From: Candidatus Zixiibacteriota bacterium
GTDB lineage: Bacteria > Zixibacteria > MSB-5A5 > DG-27
NCBI GenBank assembly: GCA_030605835.1
Contig: JAUWHO010000027.1
Location: 1 to 64,000 of the forward strand
Reading direction: 5' to 3'
Length of the DNA: 64,000 bases
Below the pieces are notes generated by a model. The model was given only the letters and a program-made list of their open reading frames with translations. It ran no database searches and was not told where the DNA came from. Within the stretch, counting starts at the first letter, position 1. Each line of letters opens with the position of its first letter. The translations under genes and the position numbers were made by a program. Below are positions 55,436 to 64,000 of the stretch, piece by piece.

Positions 55436-56860
55436 ATGACTTCCTCGGTTCGCAAGAATTTCCCTACCCTGGTTTCGGCGATGCTTGTTGCCTCCGACCT
55501 GGTAGCGATATTCTTCTCGGTTCTGTTCTCTTACTGGCTGAGATTTTTTTCTCCCCTGGCAAGGAGTCTCCCGGTAACAAAGGGGATTCCACCGTTGGAG
55601 TGGTATCTTTACGGAACCATTTTCGTGGCCTTAGTCTGGGTTATCATCTTCGCCCGCCACGGGATGTATCGAAGTCGCCGAGAGGTGTCGGCTTTCGAGG
55701 AGCTCTACTGTGTTTTTCAGGGAATCACTCTCGGTTTCATAATCGTTTTAGCCTCCAGTTTCTTTTTGCGGGGGGAGACCTCCTTCTCCAGACTGGTTTT
55801 AGTAATGGTTTGGCCCCTCAGCGTCCTCTCTGCCACCCTCTTCAGGCGGCTGCTGCGCTTCTGGGAATTGAAGATGCTAAAGAGCGGCTTTGGAACCAGA
55901 AAAGTAATCATCGTAGGGCAGGGGGAGCTCGCTCGAAGAGTGTATAGGAGTCTCCAGCGAAACCCTCAGAGGGGATACGAAATCCTGGGCAGTTTCACCG
56001 AGGATAGAGACCTTCCCCCCTTAGGTCCGGGCTGTCCGCAGTTGGGAAGGATAGAGGAAACTGGCAGCATGGCCGCACCTCTGAAGCCCCAACTGGTGAT
56101 GATCGCGCTTCCCTCCGAGTATAATCCCTGGATTCTGAAGTTCGTTTTGGCCTATCCCGACATAAACGTTGAATTCCAACTGGTGCCCGACCTTCTGGGG
56201 ATGATCGCCAGCCGGGCCGAAATCACTCAACTGGAGGGATTACCTCTTATCTCCGTGGGCAAAACCCCCCTCGACGGGTGGGGCCGCGTCCTGAAACGAA
56301 GCATCGATATTGCAGTCTCCGGCGTGGGGTTAGCGCTACTGTCTCCGATCATGTTGATCCTGGCAATTCTGGTGAAGACCACCTCCAGAGGTCCGATGAT
56401 CTTCAGCCAGGAGAGAACCAGCGTGAACGGCAAGAGATTCAGACTGCACAAATTCCGCAGTATGAGACAGAACGCAGAGGCTGAGACCGGGCCGGTCTTC
56501 GCCGCCGAGAACGACTCCCGAACCACCAAGCTCGGGGCCTTGCTGAGAAGAAAGCACTTAGATGAACTTCCCCAGCTCGTCAATGTCCTCAAGGGAGACA
56601 TGAGCCTGGTGGGACCTCGTCCGGAGAGACCCCATTTTGTGGAAAAATTCAAGAAGGAATTCCCCCTCTACTTTTCCAGGCACAAGGTCAAGACCGGCAT
56701 TACCGGCTGGGCTCAGGTGAATCAGCTGCACGGCGACACCTCTATTGCCGAAAGAACCAAATACGATCTCTATTACATAGAGAATTGGTCTCTGTTCCTG
56801 GATTTGAGAATCATCCTCCTGACCCTGAAGGATTTCCTCTCCTCCAGGAACGCCTATTAG
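55436..56860 (+). CDS. Polyprenyl glycosylphosphotransferase (undecaprenyl-phosphate sugar phosphotransferase)
   Basis: RVLKRSIDIAVSGVGLALLSPIMLILAILVKTTSRGPMIFSQERTSVNGKRFRLHKFRSM; DELPQLVNVLKGDMSLVGPRPERPHFVEKF. Confidence 0.97.
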   Translation: MTSSVRKNFPTLVSAMLVASDLVAIFFSVLFSYWLRFFSPLARSLPVTKGIPPLEWYLYGTIFVALVWVIIFARHGMYRSRREVSAFEELYCVFQGITLGFIIVLASSFFLRGETSFSRLVLVMVWPLSVLSATLFRRLLRFWELKMLKSGFGTRKVIIVGQGELARRVYRSLQRNPQRGYEILGSFTEDRDLPPLGPGCPQLGRIEETGSMAAPLKPQLVMIALPSEYNPWILKFVLAYPDINVEFQLVPDLLGMIASRAEITQLEGLPLISVGKTPLDGWGRVLKRSIDIAVSGVGLALLSPIMLILAILVKTTSRGPMIFSQERTSVNGKRFRLHKFRSMRQNAEAETGPVFAAENDSRTTKLGALLRRKHLDELPQLVNVLKGDMSLVGPRPERPHFVEKFKKEFPLYFSRHKVKTGITGWAQVNQLHGDTSIAERTKYDLYYIENWSLFLDLRIILLTLKDFLSSRNAY

Positions 56861-56908
56861 ATGGTGATTGGTGAGTGGTTAGTCGTGAGTGGGAGGTTGG
56901 TGAATGGG

Positions 56909-57172
56909 TTAGTTGCCTTCCCTCATGAAGTATTCCTCGCCAAGCTTGGCGAAGACAGCCTGCGGCTTGAGGCCCTCCCTCTTCAATAGCTCTATTGTGG
57001 CCTGCAATCGTTCCGGCATAACCTCCAAGGCCACCCCACAATTGGATGAGAGCTCCTTGGGAACGGGAACGACGTCGATCTCGGGGATGACCTCCTTGAG
57101 ATGTCGTTCCGCAGCCAGCACTTGGTGGACGGACTGAAAGAGTAAAAGCGCCTTCTTTCGAGTTTTACCCAT
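56909..57172 (-). CDS. DUF3343 family protein (putative Se/S carrier)
   Basis: ALLLFQSVHQVLAAERHLKE...PVPKELSSNCGVALEV; overlaps the upstream cysteine desulfurase-like gene. Confidence 0.87.
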   Translation of the reverse strand: MGKTRKKALLLFQSVHQVLAAERHLKEVIPEIDVVPVPKELSSNCGVALEVMPERLQATIELLKREGLKPQAVFAKLGEEYFMREGN

Positions 57173-58337
57173 TTGCTCGATGGAAACGCCTGACTATTTC
57201 CTCAACCGCCTCGACGGCCAAATCTACCTCCTCCAGGGTGTTGAAGTATCCGAGACTGAAACGGATTGTACCGGCGGGGAAGGTGCCGATATACTTGTGG
57301 GCGGCAGGAGCGCATTGCAGTCCCGGCCGAGTCATTATCCTGTATTCCCGGTCTAAGATCCTTGAGACCTCCGTGGGGTCAACCCCCTTAAGGGTAATCG
57401 AACAGATATTAGCTAAACGCTCGGCAGCACCATCTCCGTAGACGGTGACGCCTTCAATGGCGCTCAGAGCAGCTCGGAGTCGAGCCCCCAGTCTTTTCTC
57501 CTTGTTCATTATACTCTCCACCCCCTCTTTCATTATGAACTCAGTGGCAGCCAGGAGTCCCGCCATCCCGGCGGAGTTTCTGGTTCCGCTCTCGAAACGG
57601 TCAGGAAAGAAATCGGGCTGCTCTTCACTTTCAGAATTGCTCCCGGTGCCTCCTCGAATCAGAGGCTCGATCTGGATCCCTTCCGCTATATAAAGTCCCC
57701 CGGTGCCCGGAGGTCCCAGCAGGGACTTATGTCCGGTGAACGCTAAAAGGTCGATGCCGTCTGATTCGACCTCAACAGGATAGCAGCCCGCGGTCTGAGC
57801 CACATCCACCAGCAGAGGCACCCCTCCTTTGAGCTTACTAATCTCTCTTAGGGGAACGATCTGTCCGGTGACGTTACAGGCGTGATTGACAACGATCAGG
57901 TTCAAGCCCTTCCCCACCTCCCGTCTGAGCGTCGCTAAGTCGGGCCTCCCCCTTTCGTCAAGGGGAAGCAGGACGATTTCTCCCTTCTTAGCCCTCAAAA
58001 GATACCTCAGGGGGCGCATCACCGCGTTATGCTCCAGGGGGGTAGTCAGGACTCTGAAGCCCTGGGGCAAGAGTCCCCGGAGGACCAAGTTTATAGCTTC
58101 GGTGGCTCCGGAGGTGAGAATTAGCCTTCTGGAGTCTTCTATGCCGAAGAGCCGGCACAAACTCTCCCTTGCGGCGAAAAGAATTCTGGCGGCGGCAATA
58201 GATTGCGAGTGCCCGGAGCGCCCGGGATTGGCACCTATGTCTCGCAAAAAGTCAGCCACCGCCTCGGGAACGCCGGGGGCTTTCGGAAACGAGGTAGAGG
58301 CGTTGTCGAAGTAGATTATTTTTCTCGTCTCTTTCAT
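57165..58337 (-). CDS. Cysteine desulfurase family protein (class V PLP aminotransferase)
   Basis: IIYFDNASTSFPKAPGV, LTSGATEAINLVLRG, LLAFTGHKSLLGPPGTGGLYI (PLP Lys), MTRPGLQCAPAAHKYIGTFPAGTIRFSLGYFNT (Cys). Confidence 0.93.
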   Translation of the reverse strand: MKETRKIIYFDNASTSFPKAPGVPEAVADFLRDIGANPGRSGHSQSIAAARILFAARESLCRLFGIEDSRRLILTSGATEAINLVLRGLLPQGFRVLTTPLEHNAVMRPLRYLLRAKKGEIVLLPLDERGRPDLATLRREVGKGLNLIVVNHACNVTGQIVPLREISKLKGGVPLLVDVAQTAGCYPVEVESDGIDLLAFTGHKSLLGPPGTGGLYIAEGIQIEPLIRGGTGSNSESEEQPDFFPDRFESGTRNSAGMAGLLAATEFIMKEGVESIMNKEKRLGARLRAALSAIEGVTVYGDGAAERLANICSITLKGVDPTEVSRILDREYRIMTRPGLQCAPAAHKYIGTFPAGTIRFSLGYFNTLEEVDLAVEAVEEIVRRFHRANG

Positions 58338-58681
58338 GGGGCAACAATTGAGCCGGCCTCAAAGAGGGTCTTGGCGATCTCCCCCATGTTGTTGATCTTT
58401 CCGACCGCCAGCTTGTCCTTCGACTTATAGTAGTCCAGACAGGTGCCGCAGAAGAGGAGCTCCACCCCGTTTTTCGCCAACTCGAACAGCTCCTCCAATA
58501 CCGGTGACCCTTGAGTCCCCAATCTCACACCCTGGTTATAGCAGACGATCTTTCTGGGGAGGAGCTTGTCACGGATGATGGTCTTCAGAAAATTCCGCAG
58601 AAGAAGTTTCCCCAACTCCTCTGGGCCAGTTCCCATCCTGTCATCCGTGAAAACCACGATTCTGTTCCGGTCAGATACCAT
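58334..58681 (-). CDS. YedF-like DsrE-domain selenium/sulfur metabolism protein (no TusA domain)
   Basis: IVVFTDDRMGTGPEELGKLLLRNFLKTI...VCYNQGVRLGTQGSPVLEELFELAKNGVELLFCGTCLDYYKSKDKLAVGKINNMGEI. Confidence 0.85.
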   Translation of the reverse strand: MVSDRNRIVVFTDDRMGTGPEELGKLLLRNFLKTIIRDKLLPRKIVCYNQGVRLGTQGSPVLEELFELAKNGVELLFCGTCLDYYKSKDKLAVGKINNMGEIAKTLFEAGSIVAP

Positions 58682-58695
58682 TTCCTCTCTCCGCT

Positions 58696-59853
58696 TTAAG
58701 TCTCCAAGACTCGTATGAGTTTTCTGATCTCAGTTACGTTGTTATAGAAGTGAGGCGATACCCGGATGCCTCCCTCCCGCAGTGAGGTTATTATCCCCTC
58801 TTCTCTCAATCTTCTGTGAACCCGGTCAATCCCCGGACCGGTGAAGTTGATGATTGAGGACAGATGTTTCTCCTCCAGGCTGCTCTTCAATTCGTAACGG
58901 GAAGAACTGTTGATATGGTCGATGAGCAGCTTCAAAAGCCTCCGATTGTGTTTCTCGATGTTCTTTATCCCCGCCGAGAGAAGCATGTCCAGACAGGCAT
59001 CAAAACCGCGAATATCCAAGAACGGATAGCTGCCGAATTCGAAGCGTCGGGCAGTCTCAAAAGGCTTCAGATCGTAGCGCAAGAGGTTGGTGAAATCAGG
59101 TTTCTTCTTCCCCCGGCACCAATCCACCGAGAGCCAGCCGGAAAAGGGGGTGCCGAGGCTCCTTTTGGCCTCCGAAGAGAGATAGACAAATCCTGTGCCC
59201 GGAGGGGACAGAAGCCATTTGTGTCCGCCGCAGGAGAGCAAGTCGATCCCGCACTCCTTGACATCCAGAACCTGATTGCCGACCCCCTGAATGCCGTCGA
59301 CCACGAAGAAAATATCCTTCTGTTTGCAGATTTCTCCCAGAGCTTTCAAGTCATTCTTATATCCGTTAAGAAATTGGACGAAGCTGACGGAGAACACCCT
59401 CGTCTCCGGTGTGATGGCATCGTGAAAACGGCTTATGTCGAAAAAACCATTCTTGGTCTTTATGAATTTGACGCGAATCCCCTCGCTTCTGAGGTTCAGC
59501 CAGGGGTAGACATTTGCCGGGAACTCCACCTCCGGAAGCAGTATCTCATCTCCACTTTTCAACCCCAACCCCCGGCAGACGAGGTTCAAACCGTAAGAAG
59601 TGTTAGTTGTCAGAGCAATCTCGGAGCTTTTCGCCTTAATCAATCTAGCACACTTCTCCCTGACCTCCTCGACGATCCTGAAGGATTCGGGGTCGTGCTC
59701 GTTCTCGGTATAAGAAGAATCGTAGAGAAACTTCTCCATCACTCTCTTAGCGGAAAGAGGAAGAGGTCCCTCGGAGGCGTTATTCAGATAGATACATTTC
59801 TTGGTCAGCGGAAAGTATCTTCTGAGGTGGGATAAGCTCTTTTTCCCTGCCAT
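58696..59853 (-). CDS. Class V PLP-dependent aminotransferase without obvious cysteine-desulfurase Cys
   Basis: CIYLNNASEGPLPLSAKRVMEKFL, LLSCGGHKWLLSPPGTGFVYL (PLP Lys); C-term REGGIRVSPHFYNNVTEI. Start trimmed to MAGKKSLSH at 59853 because the longer ORF overlaps the upstream gene. Confidence 0.9.
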   Translation of the reverse strand: MAGKKSLSHLRRYFPLTKKCIYLNNASEGPLPLSAKRVMEKFLYDSSYTENEHDPESFRIVEEVREKCARLIKAKSSEIALTTNTSYGLNLVCRGLGLKSGDEILLPEVEFPANVYPWLNLRSEGIRVKFIKTKNGFFDISRFHDAITPETRVFSVSFVQFLNGYKNDLKALGEICKQKDIFFVVDGIQGVGNQVLDVKECGIDLLSCGGHKWLLSPPGTGFVYLSSEAKRSLGTPFSGWLSVDWCRGKKKPDFTNLLRYDLKPFETARRFEFGSYPFLDIRGFDACLDMLLSAGIKNIEKHNRRLLKLLIDHINSSSRYELKSSLEEKHLSSIINFTGPGIDRVHRRLREEGIITSLREGGIRVSPHFYNNVTEIRKLIRVLET

Positions 59854-59879
59854 CGCGGTTTCTGTAAGGTTAGGTGTGG

Positions 59880-60863
59880 TCAAAGCCAGCCGTTCTCTCG
59901 ATACCATCTGACGGTTTCGGTGACGCCGGCTCTGAAATCGTGTCTCGCCTCCCAGCCCAAATCTCTCCTGGCCCTGGAGACGTCGCAGATCCAATATCTC
60001 TGGGTCATATCCTTCGACTTGTGAACCGAAAGGGGCGGTATTCTCCCCGAGAATTTCGAGACTGTCTCCACAAGGAAGGCCAGCGTGAGAAGTGCGACTT
60101 TAGGGATTCTCACCGTCTTGGCCTTCACCCCCATTACCTCCGCCATGATATCGAAGGCCTCCTCCCAGCTGTAGGCCCTCTTATCGGCGATGAAGTAAGT
60201 CTGAGCATTCGCCAGCTCGCTTTCTGAAGAGACGATTATGGCCTCCACCAAATCCTTCACATAGACCACGCTTATGTATGCCTTCCCGAAGCCGAAAAGG
60301 GGTTTAATCCCCCGATTTATCGCTTTGAAAAAGGGGAGGATGTCCTTGTCTTTAGGCCCGTATATGGCCGGGGGTCTGATAATGGTGAAGGGGATTCTGT
60401 TCTGGAACTTCCAGACTTCCTTCTCCCCCCCCAGTTTGGAGCGCCCGTAGTCGGTGATCGGTCTGGGGGGTTCGTCTTCACTTTTGGGATTGTCAGACCT
60501 GCTGGGACCAGTCGCCGCCTGGGAGGAGATGTAGACAAACCGCTCTAAGTTGGGGTTGGCCTGAGCAACCGCCCCCAGGAGATTTCTGGTTCCCTCCTGG
60601 TTGACTCCATAGAAATCTGAGGGGTTTCGTGCCTTGGTTATGCCTCCAACATGATAGATCACCTGGCAATTGGAGACCGGCCCCAAAAGGGTTTCCGGTT
60701 GTCTCAGATCTGCGTAAACCAACTCAGGCTCTGAACCCTTCAGGAAGCTTAAATCGCTGGTCCTGCGTACCTGCGCTCTAACCTCATAACCTCTCAGGAG
60801 TAAGGCCTCGACCAGATGAGCTCCCACAAAACCGTTCGCGCCGGTGACCAGGACTTGCTTCAT
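59880..60863 (-). CDS. NAD-dependent epimerase/dehydratase (extended SDR); candidate ceramide reductase (CerR-like)
   Basis: VLVTGANGFVGAHLVEALLLRGYEVRAQVR, YISSQAATGPS, YGRSK active site; divergent from the SPT-like gene. Confidence 0.9.
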   Translation of the reverse strand: MKQVLVTGANGFVGAHLVEALLLRGYEVRAQVRRTSDLSFLKGSEPELVYADLRQPETLLGPVSNCQVIYHVGGITKARNPSDFYGVNQEGTRNLLGAVAQANPNLERFVYISSQAATGPSRSDNPKSEDEPPRPITDYGRSKLGGEKEVWKFQNRIPFTIIRPPAIYGPKDKDILPFFKAINRGIKPLFGFGKAYISVVYVKDLVEAIIVSSESELANAQTYFIADKRAYSWEEAFDIMAEVMGVKAKTVRIPKVALLTLAFLVETVSKFSGRIPPLSVHKSKDMTQRYWICDVSRARRDLGWEARHDFRAGVTETVRWYRENGWL

Positions 60864-60884
60864 GCGAGGGAGGAGTTTTTAGAC

Positions 60885-60932
60885 TTGACAAAAGGCATGT
60901 TTTCTTATAAGATTTCATCGAAAAATCGATGA
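60885..60932 (+). promoter_or_regulatory. Candidate promoter with hairpin operator between SDR and SPT-like genes
   Basis: TTGACA (60885-60890), 17-bp spacer, TAAGAT (60908-60913), followed by inverted repeat TCATCGA-AAAA-TCGATGA (60915-60932). Confidence 0.5.
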
Positions 60933-61063
60933 GAGGACCTTATCGACATGCTCGTATCAACTAAAAAGAGGGCTTCTAGGTTTAAACAGGATTCAGCACA
61001 GGCTCCAATTACAATACGGTTCCAAGTAAATCAAATGAGCTTTGCTGCGCAAGGGCTAATTGA

Positions 61064-62260
61064 ATGAAAGCAAGCCCAAGGGACCTGCTGGACAAATGCA
61101 TGAACTTCACTGAGGCTAAGGAAGTTCAGAGCGCTGGCTATTATCCCTATTTCCAGCCGATAGATTCTGCCTCCGAGACCGAGGTTTACATTGACGGGAA
61201 AAAGATGATAATGATCGGCTCCAACAACTATCTGGGGCTGACCACCCATCCCAAGGTCAAGGAGGCCGCCATCAAAGCCATCGAGAAATATGGGGTGGGC
61301 TGCACCGGCTCCCGCTTCTTAAACGGCACCCTAGACATCCACGAGGAGTTGGAGGCTCGCTTAGCAAAGTTCATGAAGAGGGAGGCGGCCCTGGTCTTCT
61401 CCACCGGCTTTCAGACGAACTTAGGCACCATCTCCGCTCTGGTGGGGAAAAATGACACCATCTTTATGGACCGGGGCGACCACGCCTCCATTGTGGATGG
61501 CTGCAGACTCTCATACGGGAAGCTGGTCAAATTCAAACACAACGACATGGCCGATCTGCGCAGACTGTTGAACGCTAACAACAACAACTATGGTAAACTG
61601 ATAGTGGTCGACGGGGTTTTCTCCATGGAGGGGGATATTGTCAACCTTCCGGAGATGATGGAACTGGCGAAGGAATTCAATTGCACCACCATGGTCGATG
61701 ATGCCCACTCCATCGGGGTTTTAGGCGAAAACGGTCGCGGCACCACCGAACATTTCGGCCTGGAGGAAGAGGTCGACATCGTCATGGGGACCTTCTCCAA
61801 ATCGTTCGCCTCCATTGGTGGTTTCATCGTCGGGGATGAGGCCATTATTCACTTCGTTAAGCACTTTTCTCGGCCATTGATCTTCTCCGCCAGCCCTCCA
61901 CCGGCATCAGTGGCTACCTGTCTGGCCTCGTTGGACATAATCGAAAAGGAGCCGGAGAGGCGAGTTCGCCTCTGGGAGATCACTCGCTATATGCACCAGG
62001 AGTTCAAATCGCTGGGATTCGACATCGGCTCCACCCAGACGCCGATTATCCCCATCGTCATCGGGGATGATATGAAGACCTTCCAGTTCTGGAAGGAGCT
62101 TCGCCAAAACGGTCTTTTCACCAATCCGATTGTCTCTCCGGCGGTCTCTCCCGGTGGAGCCCTAATCCGCACCAGCTACACTGCCATCCACACCGATGAA
62201 CAATTGGAGAGGGTCTTAGAGGTCTTCAAAAAGGTGGGCACAAAATACGGGCTGATTTGA
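61064..62260 (+). CDS. Alpha-oxoamine synthase, serine palmitoyltransferase-like (SPT)
   Basis: IGSNNYLGLTTHPKVKEAAIKAIEKYGVGCTGSRFLNGTLDIHEELE, DDAHSIGVLGENGRGTTEHF, VMGTFSKSFASIGGFIVGD (PLP Lys). Confidence 0.9.
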   Translation: MKASPRDLLDKCMNFTEAKEVQSAGYYPYFQPIDSASETEVYIDGKKMIMIGSNNYLGLTTHPKVKEAAIKAIEKYGVGCTGSRFLNGTLDIHEELEARLAKFMKREAALVFSTGFQTNLGTISALVGKNDTIFMDRGDHASIVDGCRLSYGKLVKFKHNDMADLRRLLNANNNNYGKLIVVDGVFSMEGDIVNLPEMMELAKEFNCTTMVDDAHSIGVLGENGRGTTEHFGLEEEVDIVMGTFSKSFASIGGFIVGDEAIIHFVKHFSRPLIFSASPPPASVATCLASLDIIEKEPERRVRLWEITRYMHQEFKSLGFDIGSTQTPIIPIVIGDDMKTFQFWKELRQNGLFTNPIVSPAVSPGGALIRTSYTAIHTDEQLERVLEVFKKVGTKYGLI

Positions 62261-62318
62261 GACTGCAAGCATAATAGCAATCGAGAGCCCCGATCCCCTC
62301 GGGGCTTTACTCACAAAA

Positions 62319-63452
62319 GTGGCTGAAGATCAGATAATCATTCAGGAAGTAAAGACCGAAAAAGAGCTACTGCAGTTCATAAAGCTCCCCTGGAAGATAT
62401 ATAAGGACGACCCCAACTGGGTTCCGCCCCTAATATCAGAACGCAAAGCTTTCTTCAACCCTCAAAAGAATCCCTTCTTTGAACATGCCCTAGTCAAGAA
62501 TTTTCTGGCGAGCAGAGACGGGGAGCTGGTCGGCCGCATATCCGCGATTGTGAATCACAACCACAACCGATTTCACAATGACCGCGTCGGTTTTTTCGGC
62601 TTCTTCGAATCGATTAAGGATTATCAGGTCTCGGCCCAACTTTTTGACACCGCTGGAGATTTCCTCAAATCGCAAGGGATGGAACTGATGCGGGGCCCCT
62701 GCAACTTCTCCACCAATGATGAGCTCGGTTTCCTTTCGGAGGGATACGATTCCCCTCCGGTCATTATGATGACTTACAACCCCAGATATTACCTCGACTT
62801 CGCGGAGGAGTATGGTTTCCGTAAGGCCAAAGACCTCTATGCCTACTACTTGCACGAGCCCATCAAACTGCCGGAGCGGGTGGTCCGAGTTGCCGAGAAG
62901 GTGAAAAAGAAGAGAAACCTCCAAATACGGCGGCTGAACTTGAAGAGGTTGGACTCCGAGATCAAAATAATCAAGGAAATCTACAACTCTGCCTGGTCGG
63001 ACAACTGGGGGTTCGTTCCCATGACCGATCGAGAGTTCGATCATATGGCCAAAGAGCTAAAAAGGATCGTCGACCCCGATCTGGTGCTGATTGCCGAGGT
63101 CAACGGCGAGCCGGCGGGGTTCTCTCTGGCCCTGCCTAATATCAATCAAGTTTTGAAGAAACTGAATGGCAGGCTCTTTCCGCTCGGCATCTTAAAACTT
63201 CTCTGGTATACCAAGATCAAGAGATTGGTTGACGGCACCCGCATTCTCACTGCCGGGGTGGTGGAGAAGTATCGCCGTCAGGGGATCGACAATATCTTCT
63301 ATCTGGATACCTATCGCATCGGAACCGGAAAGGGGTATACCTGGGGGGAGTTCTCCTGGATCCTAGAAGATAACCACGCGATGAACAGTGCCCTCGAAAC
63401 TCTAGGGGCGCGGATTTACAAAAAATATAGAATCTACGAAATGGAAATCTAA
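62319..63452 (+). CDS. GNAT-fold acyltransferase-like protein; candidate bacterial ceramide synthase (bCerS-like)
   Basis: LLQFIKLPWKIYKDDPNWVPPLISERKAFFNPQKNPFFEHALVKNFLASRDGELVGRISAIVNHNHNRFHNDRVGFFGFFES; immediately downstream of the SPT-like gene. GTG start. Confidence 0.75.
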   Translation: MAEDQIIIQEVKTEKELLQFIKLPWKIYKDDPNWVPPLISERKAFFNPQKNPFFEHALVKNFLASRDGELVGRISAIVNHNHNRFHNDRVGFFGFFESIKDYQVSAQLFDTAGDFLKSQGMELMRGPCNFSTNDELGFLSEGYDSPPVIMMTYNPRYYLDFAEEYGFRKAKDLYAYYLHEPIKLPERVVRVAEKVKKKRNLQIRRLNLKRLDSEIKIIKEIYNSAWSDNWGFVPMTDREFDHMAKELKRIVDPDLVLIAEVNGEPAGFSLALPNINQVLKKLNGRLFPLGILKLLWYTKIKRLVDGTRILTAGVVEKYRRQGIDNIFYLDTYRIGTGKGYTWGEFSWILEDNHAMNSALETLGARIYKKYRIYEMEI

Positions 63453-63497
63453 TGGTGAGTGGTCATTGGTGAGCAGTGAGTTGTTTTAAGCCAAGCT

Positions 63498-63522
63498 CGG
63501 GCGGGAGTTGCACTCCCGACCG
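63498..63522. repeat. REP-like palindrome, same family as 12847-12871
   Basis: CGGGCGGGAGT-TGC-ACTCCCGACCG; one stem mismatch. Confidence 0.8.
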
Positions 63523-63568
63523 CAAGTTATCTGCTTAATGCGCTTAATCTGTTGTGAAGGTCTATGTT

Positions 63569-63624
63569 GGTATCGGACGCCGACGCCCGATGCCGAAAGG
63601 TCACGGATGAGGGCATCCGTGACC
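63569..63624. repeat. Two REP-like palindromes
   Basis: GGTATCGGACG-CCGA-CGCCCGATGCC (two G-T pairs) and GGTCACGGATG-AGGG-CATCCGTGACC (11-bp perfect stem). Confidence 0.8.
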
Positions 63625-64000
63625 AACAGTGGCTGATCTTCGGAAACCCTTCGGATCCATGTGGATCTGAAGGTCATGCGCCTGTCGGCTAACGACTTGT
63701 CCGATACGGCTCCCTATCGGTATGAGTTTCCGTTACATACTCTCTTATTCCCGGCGGCGGCGGCCGCGGGGCTACCCCAGGATTGGCTCACAGTCCACAG
63801 TTCCAGATAATCCCTGTTCCCTGTAACCTGTCCCCTGTTCCCCGACTCAGCTTCCGGCAATCAATTCACCTAATCTTTTTCTCAGCTCTCTGACCGGTTT
63901 TCTCTTCCCCTCAAGGAGTTCCCTAATCTGGGGCAGTTTCCTCTCGGTGGCTTTCTCGCCGTGAGCGATGCATTCCTCCACCTTCGTAAAATTCGCCCAG

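Follow-up and report, generated by a model that had tools for sequence, protein, structure and literature searches.

A probable locus for ceramide-backbone synthesis in a Candidatus Zixiibacteriota bacterium

Introduction

In Caulobacter crescentus, spt, bcerS (cerS) and cerR (CC_1162, CC_1154 and CC_1164) encode an alpha-oxoamine-type serine palmitoyltransferase (SPT), a GNAT-superfamily N-acyltransferase and an epimerase-family short-chain dehydrogenase/reductase (SDR), respectively (PMC11324152, PMC11087976). The same three enzyme types are encoded side by side at positions 59880-63452 of a 64,000-nucleotide stretch of DNA from Candidatus Zixiibacteriota bacterium (assembly GCA_030605835.1, contig JAUWHO010000027.1, positions 1 to 64,000), referred to below as the window, which belongs to contig C31 of a 2.68-Mb genome that is 96% complete. 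Here it is argued that this trio very probably represents the ceramide-backbone core of the organism. Likeness to the Caulobacter proteins was judged through their orthologues in Escherichia coli BL21, Sphingomonas and Roseomonas.

The described systems differ in how these genes are arranged and accompanied. In the Rhodobacteria, homologues of Caulobacter CC_1154 are suggested to occur with spt (PMC9386255), cerS and spt have been reported to occupy separate operons in every case, and spt is accompanied by acpR and aasR. The cluster of E. coli BL21(DE3) contains yghO (ECD_02850) and, from ECD_02851 onwards, genes for an acyl-AMP ligase, an epimerase, an acyl carrier protein and spt, and ECD_02850 has been suggested to be the N-acyltransferase (PMC9386255). 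How the pathway ends is disputed, one study favouring acylation before reduction (PMC11087976) and others the eukaryotic order. For the Black Sea, Spt-like proteins have been predicted in 38 phyla (40 overall), many with co-located bCerS and CerR, according to PMC11334938, in the main text of which Zixibacteria are not named. No relevant work on sphingolipids of Zixibacteria was found in the literature searched.

Results

All three open reading frames are complete and free of internal stops, with the coordinates and strands assigned in a preliminary description of the window, which had proposed a complete ceramide core in one divergent locus. The SPT gene (61064..62260, + strand, 398 aa) is followed after 58 bp by the gene for a tandem-GNAT N-acyltransferase, a putative bacterial ceramide synthase (bCerS/CerS; 62319..63452, + strand, 377 aa, GTG start), and is separated by a divergent intergenic region of 200 bp (60864..61063) from the gene for an SDR of the epimerase family, a putative CerR-like ceramide reductase (59880..60863, - strand, 327 aa). 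The side-by-side divergent layout was thus borne out. In the window the GNAT gene comes directly after the SPT gene, unlike the split operons of the Rhodobacteria, and neither acpR nor aasR was recognised at the locus. The E. coli cluster offers full-length homologues of all three proteins (GNAT 38%, SDR 28% and SPT ~39% identity, the last measured on the copy in a plasmid record) but differs in its gene order and in containing acpR, aasR and lptF/lptG homologues. Adjoining SPT, GNAT and SDR genes, as in the window, are found in Rubrobacter, Streptomyces and Aureispira plasmid loci; the trio is co-directional in the first two, whereas the Aureispira layout is divergent like that of the window.

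The SPT is of the Bacteroidota/delta type. Its best NCBIfam model was SerpalmtaseCFB (NF047600), at 570 bits, followed by TIGR01825 (446 bits) and bioF (410 bits), such that SerpalmtaseCFB outscored the generic BioF/Kbl model by ~120 bits. The closest solved structures were the SPTs of Sphingobacterium multivorum (SmSPT; 3a2b/8guh), a member of the Bacteroidota/delta-proteobacterial subgroup, with 52.6% identity to 3a2b versus 32-42% to Kbl, BioF and the alpha-oxoamine synthase of Thermus. The residues that bind pyridoxal 5'-phosphate (PLP) and serine in SmSPT (PMC10196870) are all kept (N52, G80, S81, H138, D210, H213, T241, K244 within GTFSKS, and R367), giving the same active-site set in both enzymes. 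At position 79, which lies close to the side chain of the substrate, the window protein has Thr and SmSPT has Ala; several SPTs from known sphingolipid clusters have Thr or Ser there. Position 274 is Ala, as in SmSPT; the Lys that marks the sulfonolipid enzyme SulA at this site (SulA position 281; PMC9304779) is absent, and an identity as a SulA-type cysteate acyltransferase or sulfonolipid synthase was rejected on this basis. In a maximum likelihood tree, Kbl, BioF and the Thermus enzyme are separated with 100/100 support from a single group that takes in all known and GNAT-linked SPTs, and the window SPT sits within this group in a separate Zixibacteria clade, in which it differs from the Sphingobacterium/delta subgroup. 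The grouping with Kbl or BioF that had been named beforehand as contrary evidence was looked for in this tree and did not appear, and a Kbl or BioF identity was rejected from this clade and the identities above; the same genome carries separate Kbl-like and other alpha-oxoamine synthase paralogues. The SPT-like reading is therefore upheld, the protein grouping with experimentally known SPTs.

No match to the GNAT protein was found in Pfam, NCBIfam or, by phmmer, among PDB sequences. Searches of plasmid records with tblastn returned full-length homologues, namely E. coli YghO, a Roseomonas protein annotated as "dATP pyrophosphohydrolase", and proteins of Rubrobacter, Streptomyces, Aureispira and Diaphorobacter. 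Identity over the full length was 38% to YghO of E. coli BL21 (E=3e-89), 39% to the Diaphorobacter, 37% to the Roseomonas and 34% to the Sphingomonas protein, the last two being encoded in spt clusters of their hosts. The neighbours of yghO listed above are present both on the plasmid record and on the BL21(DE3) chromosome, and the Roseomonas and Diaphorobacter genes lie amid lptF/lptG, metallophosphoesterase and CDP-alcohol transferase genes, surroundings that resemble the phosphosphingolipid region of Caulobacter. An AlphaFold model built from 47 aligned sequences was of high confidence (pLDDT 93, pTM 0.90), and its best Foldseek matches (5kf1, 7q3a and 2wpw; E ~1e-14) are all GNATs, of which 7q3a and 2wpw have been described as tandem GNATs. 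Full-length homology to YghO and its relatives together with this model therefore show the earlier GNAT-fold assignment to be right: the protein has a predicted tandem-GNAT fold and is a member of the family that holds the CerS proteins described from sphingolipid clusters.

The SDR contains a GxxGxxG motif at residues 8-14 and a catalytic Y139xxxK143, and matches the Pfam Epimerase family (E=3e-36). It is 28% identical over its full length to cerR of E. coli BL21 (ECD_02852) and of Sphingomonas, and 34-36% identical to the SPT/GNAT-linked SDRs of Rubrobacter and Aureispira. Its PDB matches include NDUFA9 subunits, a likeness also reported for CerR (PMC11087976). The best NCBIfam match was HpnA (TIGR03466), at 151 bits against a cut-off of 367.65; HpnA and Gox2253 are set apart from the linked SDRs in the SDR tree with 100/100 support, and no squalene-hopene cyclase (SQHop_cyclase_N) was found in the organism's own 96% complete genome, so that a role as an HpnA-type hopanoid epimerase was rejected. 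A single clade of CerR and linked SDRs was not rejected by the approximately unbiased test (p=0.37), in a tree whose deep branches are not resolved and in which one Paracoccus SDR from another context falls among these sequences. A periplasmic location has been reported for Caulobacter CerR, and inspection of the N-terminus of the window SDR by eye showed no recognisable signal peptide. A single-sequence fold of the SDR was of very low confidence (pLDDT 36) and unusable. The SDR fits its earlier description as CerR-like, being homologous over its full length to the BL21 and Sphingomonas cerR products and lying apart from HpnA.

Conservation was examined in a sample of up to 57 related genomes of the class. 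SPT and GNAT genes lie within 2.3 kb of each other in 45 of the 51 genomes that have both (within ~200 bp in 39), and of the 49 genomes with SDR and SPT genes, 37 have them within 275 bp; because of this linkage the arrangement is not due to chance. Outside the class, the SPT-GNAT pair or the full trio was found in KSB1, Desulfobacterota, LCP-89, Ignavibacteriota, Bacteroidota, Myxococcota, Acidobacteriota and Actinomycetota, so that, with Zixibacteria and E. coli included, the trio or parts of it occur in ~10 phyla. Among 31 further genomes with the GNAT and no SPT inside the flank examined, ~24 carry a close SPT elsewhere; the presence of the GNAT alone is therefore no proof of an SPT, given that the others lack a close one. 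The complete Spirochaetota chromosome CP070841 is such a case, with a GNAT homologue and alpha-oxoamine synthases only ~40% identical, and its acyltransferase may serve a different lipid pathway. A separate observation concerns a Priestia megaterium plasmid, on which an SPT-like gene (L123:5998-7212; product 56% identical to the window SPT) adjoins acyltransferase and methyltransferase genes and has no GNAT or SDR neighbours. LpxC is present in 55 of the 57 genomes of the class, and the idea that sphingolipids replace lipopolysaccharide there was accordingly rejected; ceramides would add to lipid A rather than obviously replace it.

A further gene, 26 bp downstream of the SDR gene, encodes a class-V PLP-dependent enzyme (Aminotran_5, PF00266, 183 bits; 58696..59853, - strand, 385 aa). 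It was found in 46 of the 57 genomes and lies within 0.9 kb of the SDR gene in 42 of the 45 that have both, the pairing being kept in at least 9 genomes where the SDR gene has moved away from that for SPT. Among solved structures, those closest to it are of desulfurases and cystine C-S lyases. All 21 copies aligned lack the loop that carries the catalytic Cys in cysteine desulfurases, and a role as a cysteine desulfurase supplying sulfur lipids was rejected on this ground. Many relatives also encode, between the SDR and class-V genes, a divergent hydrophobic protein of 133-148 aa with 3-4 predicted membrane segments (the four-transmembrane, or 4-TM, protein, of ~140 aa; L148:3673-4095, L156:3534-3953, L142:3292-3720 and others), with a weak hint of DUF1761 in one. 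This protein is absent from the window locus and was not found elsewhere in the same genome. Neither the SDR nor the class-V enzyme was detectable in the searched genomes of family f14 of the class (G031, G037 and G043), in which SPT and GNAT are present. Among the loci examined, the class-V/SDR pairing was confined to Zixibacteria, and no literature report of the companion gene was found.

With regard to expression signals, a sigma-70-like site (TTGACA-17-TAAGAT, 60885-60913) points toward the SPT gene, although promoter-like sites in the SDR/SPT intergenic region were no more numerous than expected from shuffled sequence. A GC-rich hairpin with a 10-bp stem between the SPT and GNAT genes (62284..62308, + strand, -21.6 kcal/mol, z=-2.3) was not called an intrinsic terminator because the T run after it is short; it may be an attenuator or weak terminator and could lower read-through. 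No Rfam elements were found within 56000-64000.

The SDR gene heads a minus-strand string that also holds the class-V gene and, at 57165-58681 (-), genes for a YedF-like selenium-metabolism protein and a cysteine desulfurase (TIGR01977). Facing the GNAT gene is a patatin-like phospholipase gene, its family read by eye (contig C31 from 63847, - strand; L116:7848 to ~8800), after which comes a formamidopyrimidine-DNA glycosylase-like gene. About 5 kb past the trio, a PAP2_3-family membrane protein is encoded (contig C31:68157-69146, - strand; L116:12158-13147). The PAP2_3 family takes in inositol-phosphorylceramide synthases, and this protein is a weak candidate for a head-group enzyme.

Discussion

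The locus compares with the described ceramide pathways in having an SPT that lies apart from Kbl and BioF, together with GNAT and SDR proteins homologous to the bCerS and CerR of described clusters, and the earlier proposal of a ceramide core is supported to this extent. The case is carried by the family membership of the three proteins, the catalytic residues of the SPT and SDR, the tandem-GNAT fold and the conserved linkage, as seen in sequence, trees and predicted structure. By analogy, the PLP-dependent SPT would form 3-ketosphinganine by condensing L-serine and a fatty acyl thioester, the bCerS-type protein would N-acylate the amine to give an oxidised (3-keto) ceramide, and the CerR-like SDR would reduce the 3-keto group to yield dihydroceramide; the choice of substrates, the placing of acylation before reduction and the production of the lipid itself are inferred. 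The description of the core as complete holds for these three backbone steps and not beyond them, as genes for a dedicated acyl carrier protein, an acyl-ACP synthetase or a head-group enzyme were not recognised in the locus.

Several points weigh against this reading. The SPT, at 570 bits, falls short of the NF047600 equivalog cut-off of 640 bits, which is reached by no SPT of the class, although this cut-off is a curated threshold and not a biological property. The SDR is only 28% identical to the CerR of characterised clusters, and the deep branches of its tree, between the linked SDRs and rhodobacterial CerR, are not resolved. Some GNAT-bearing genomes have only ~40%-identical alpha-oxoamine synthases or none, and family f14 has SPT and GNAT with no detectable SDR. 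Finally, sequence cannot separate serine from alanine or glycine as the substrate of the SPT.

This last point bears on the alternative that the trio serves a sphingolipid-like pathway built on another amino acid (alanine, glycine or another), with a 1-deoxyceramide or another amino-lipid as its product. Promiscuity towards Ala and Gly is described for SPTs (PMC10196870), 1-deoxy and sulfono-1-deoxy ceramides are reported from euxinic Black Sea water (PMC11334938), and the Thr at position 79 departs from SmSPT close to the substrate side chain. Since the serine pocket (N52, G80, S81, H138, K244 and R367) is the same as in SmSPT, the SulA-type Lys is absent and Thr or Ser at position 79 recurs in SPTs of known clusters, this alternative is considered unlikely. 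Far less credible still is a set of chance neighbours, comprising a Kbl/BioF-type alpha-oxoamine synthase, an unrelated acetyltransferase and a sugar or hopanoid epimerase. All three proteins do come from large, promiscuous superfamilies, and HpnA heads the NCBIfam matches of the SDR, but the SPT clade shuts out Kbl and BioF while the genome holds such paralogues separately, HpnA splits from the linked SDRs in a genome that shows no squalene-hopene cyclase, and the linkage is kept across ~10 phyla.

A different question is whether the trio makes the ceramide core with the class-V enzyme, and in relatives the 4-TM protein, acting in the same pathway, in lipid modification or as a partner of CerR. 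The tight class-V/SDR pairing, including where the SDR has left the SPT, the frequent placing of the 4-TM gene between the two and the joint absence of SDR and class-V enzyme from the f14 genomes searched all favour such a role; confinement of the pairing to Zixibacteria among the loci examined, and the lack of the 4-TM protein in the window's own genome, speak against it. Membership of the class-V enzyme in the pathway is regarded as possible though doubtful. More speculative is the proposal that the CerR of Zixibacteria belongs to a larger conserved unit (CerR, often the 4-TM protein, and the class-V enzyme) performing an undescribed sphingolipid step, for example chemistry at the amine or head group of the long-chain base, or assistance to CerR at the membrane.

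The ceramide pathway is already known, and what is new is the class-wide conservation of its core and the class-V companion gene. For the ceramide-core reading preferred here, these findings provide sequence-level support that an uncultured bacterial class encodes sphingolipid backbones almost throughout, in compact loci suited to direct expression. Loci in which the genes are linked offer material for the debate on whether acylation or reduction comes first, together with a candidate accessory enzyme and, in the f14 genomes, CerR-less cases that are natural candidates for a ceramide pathway lacking this reductase.

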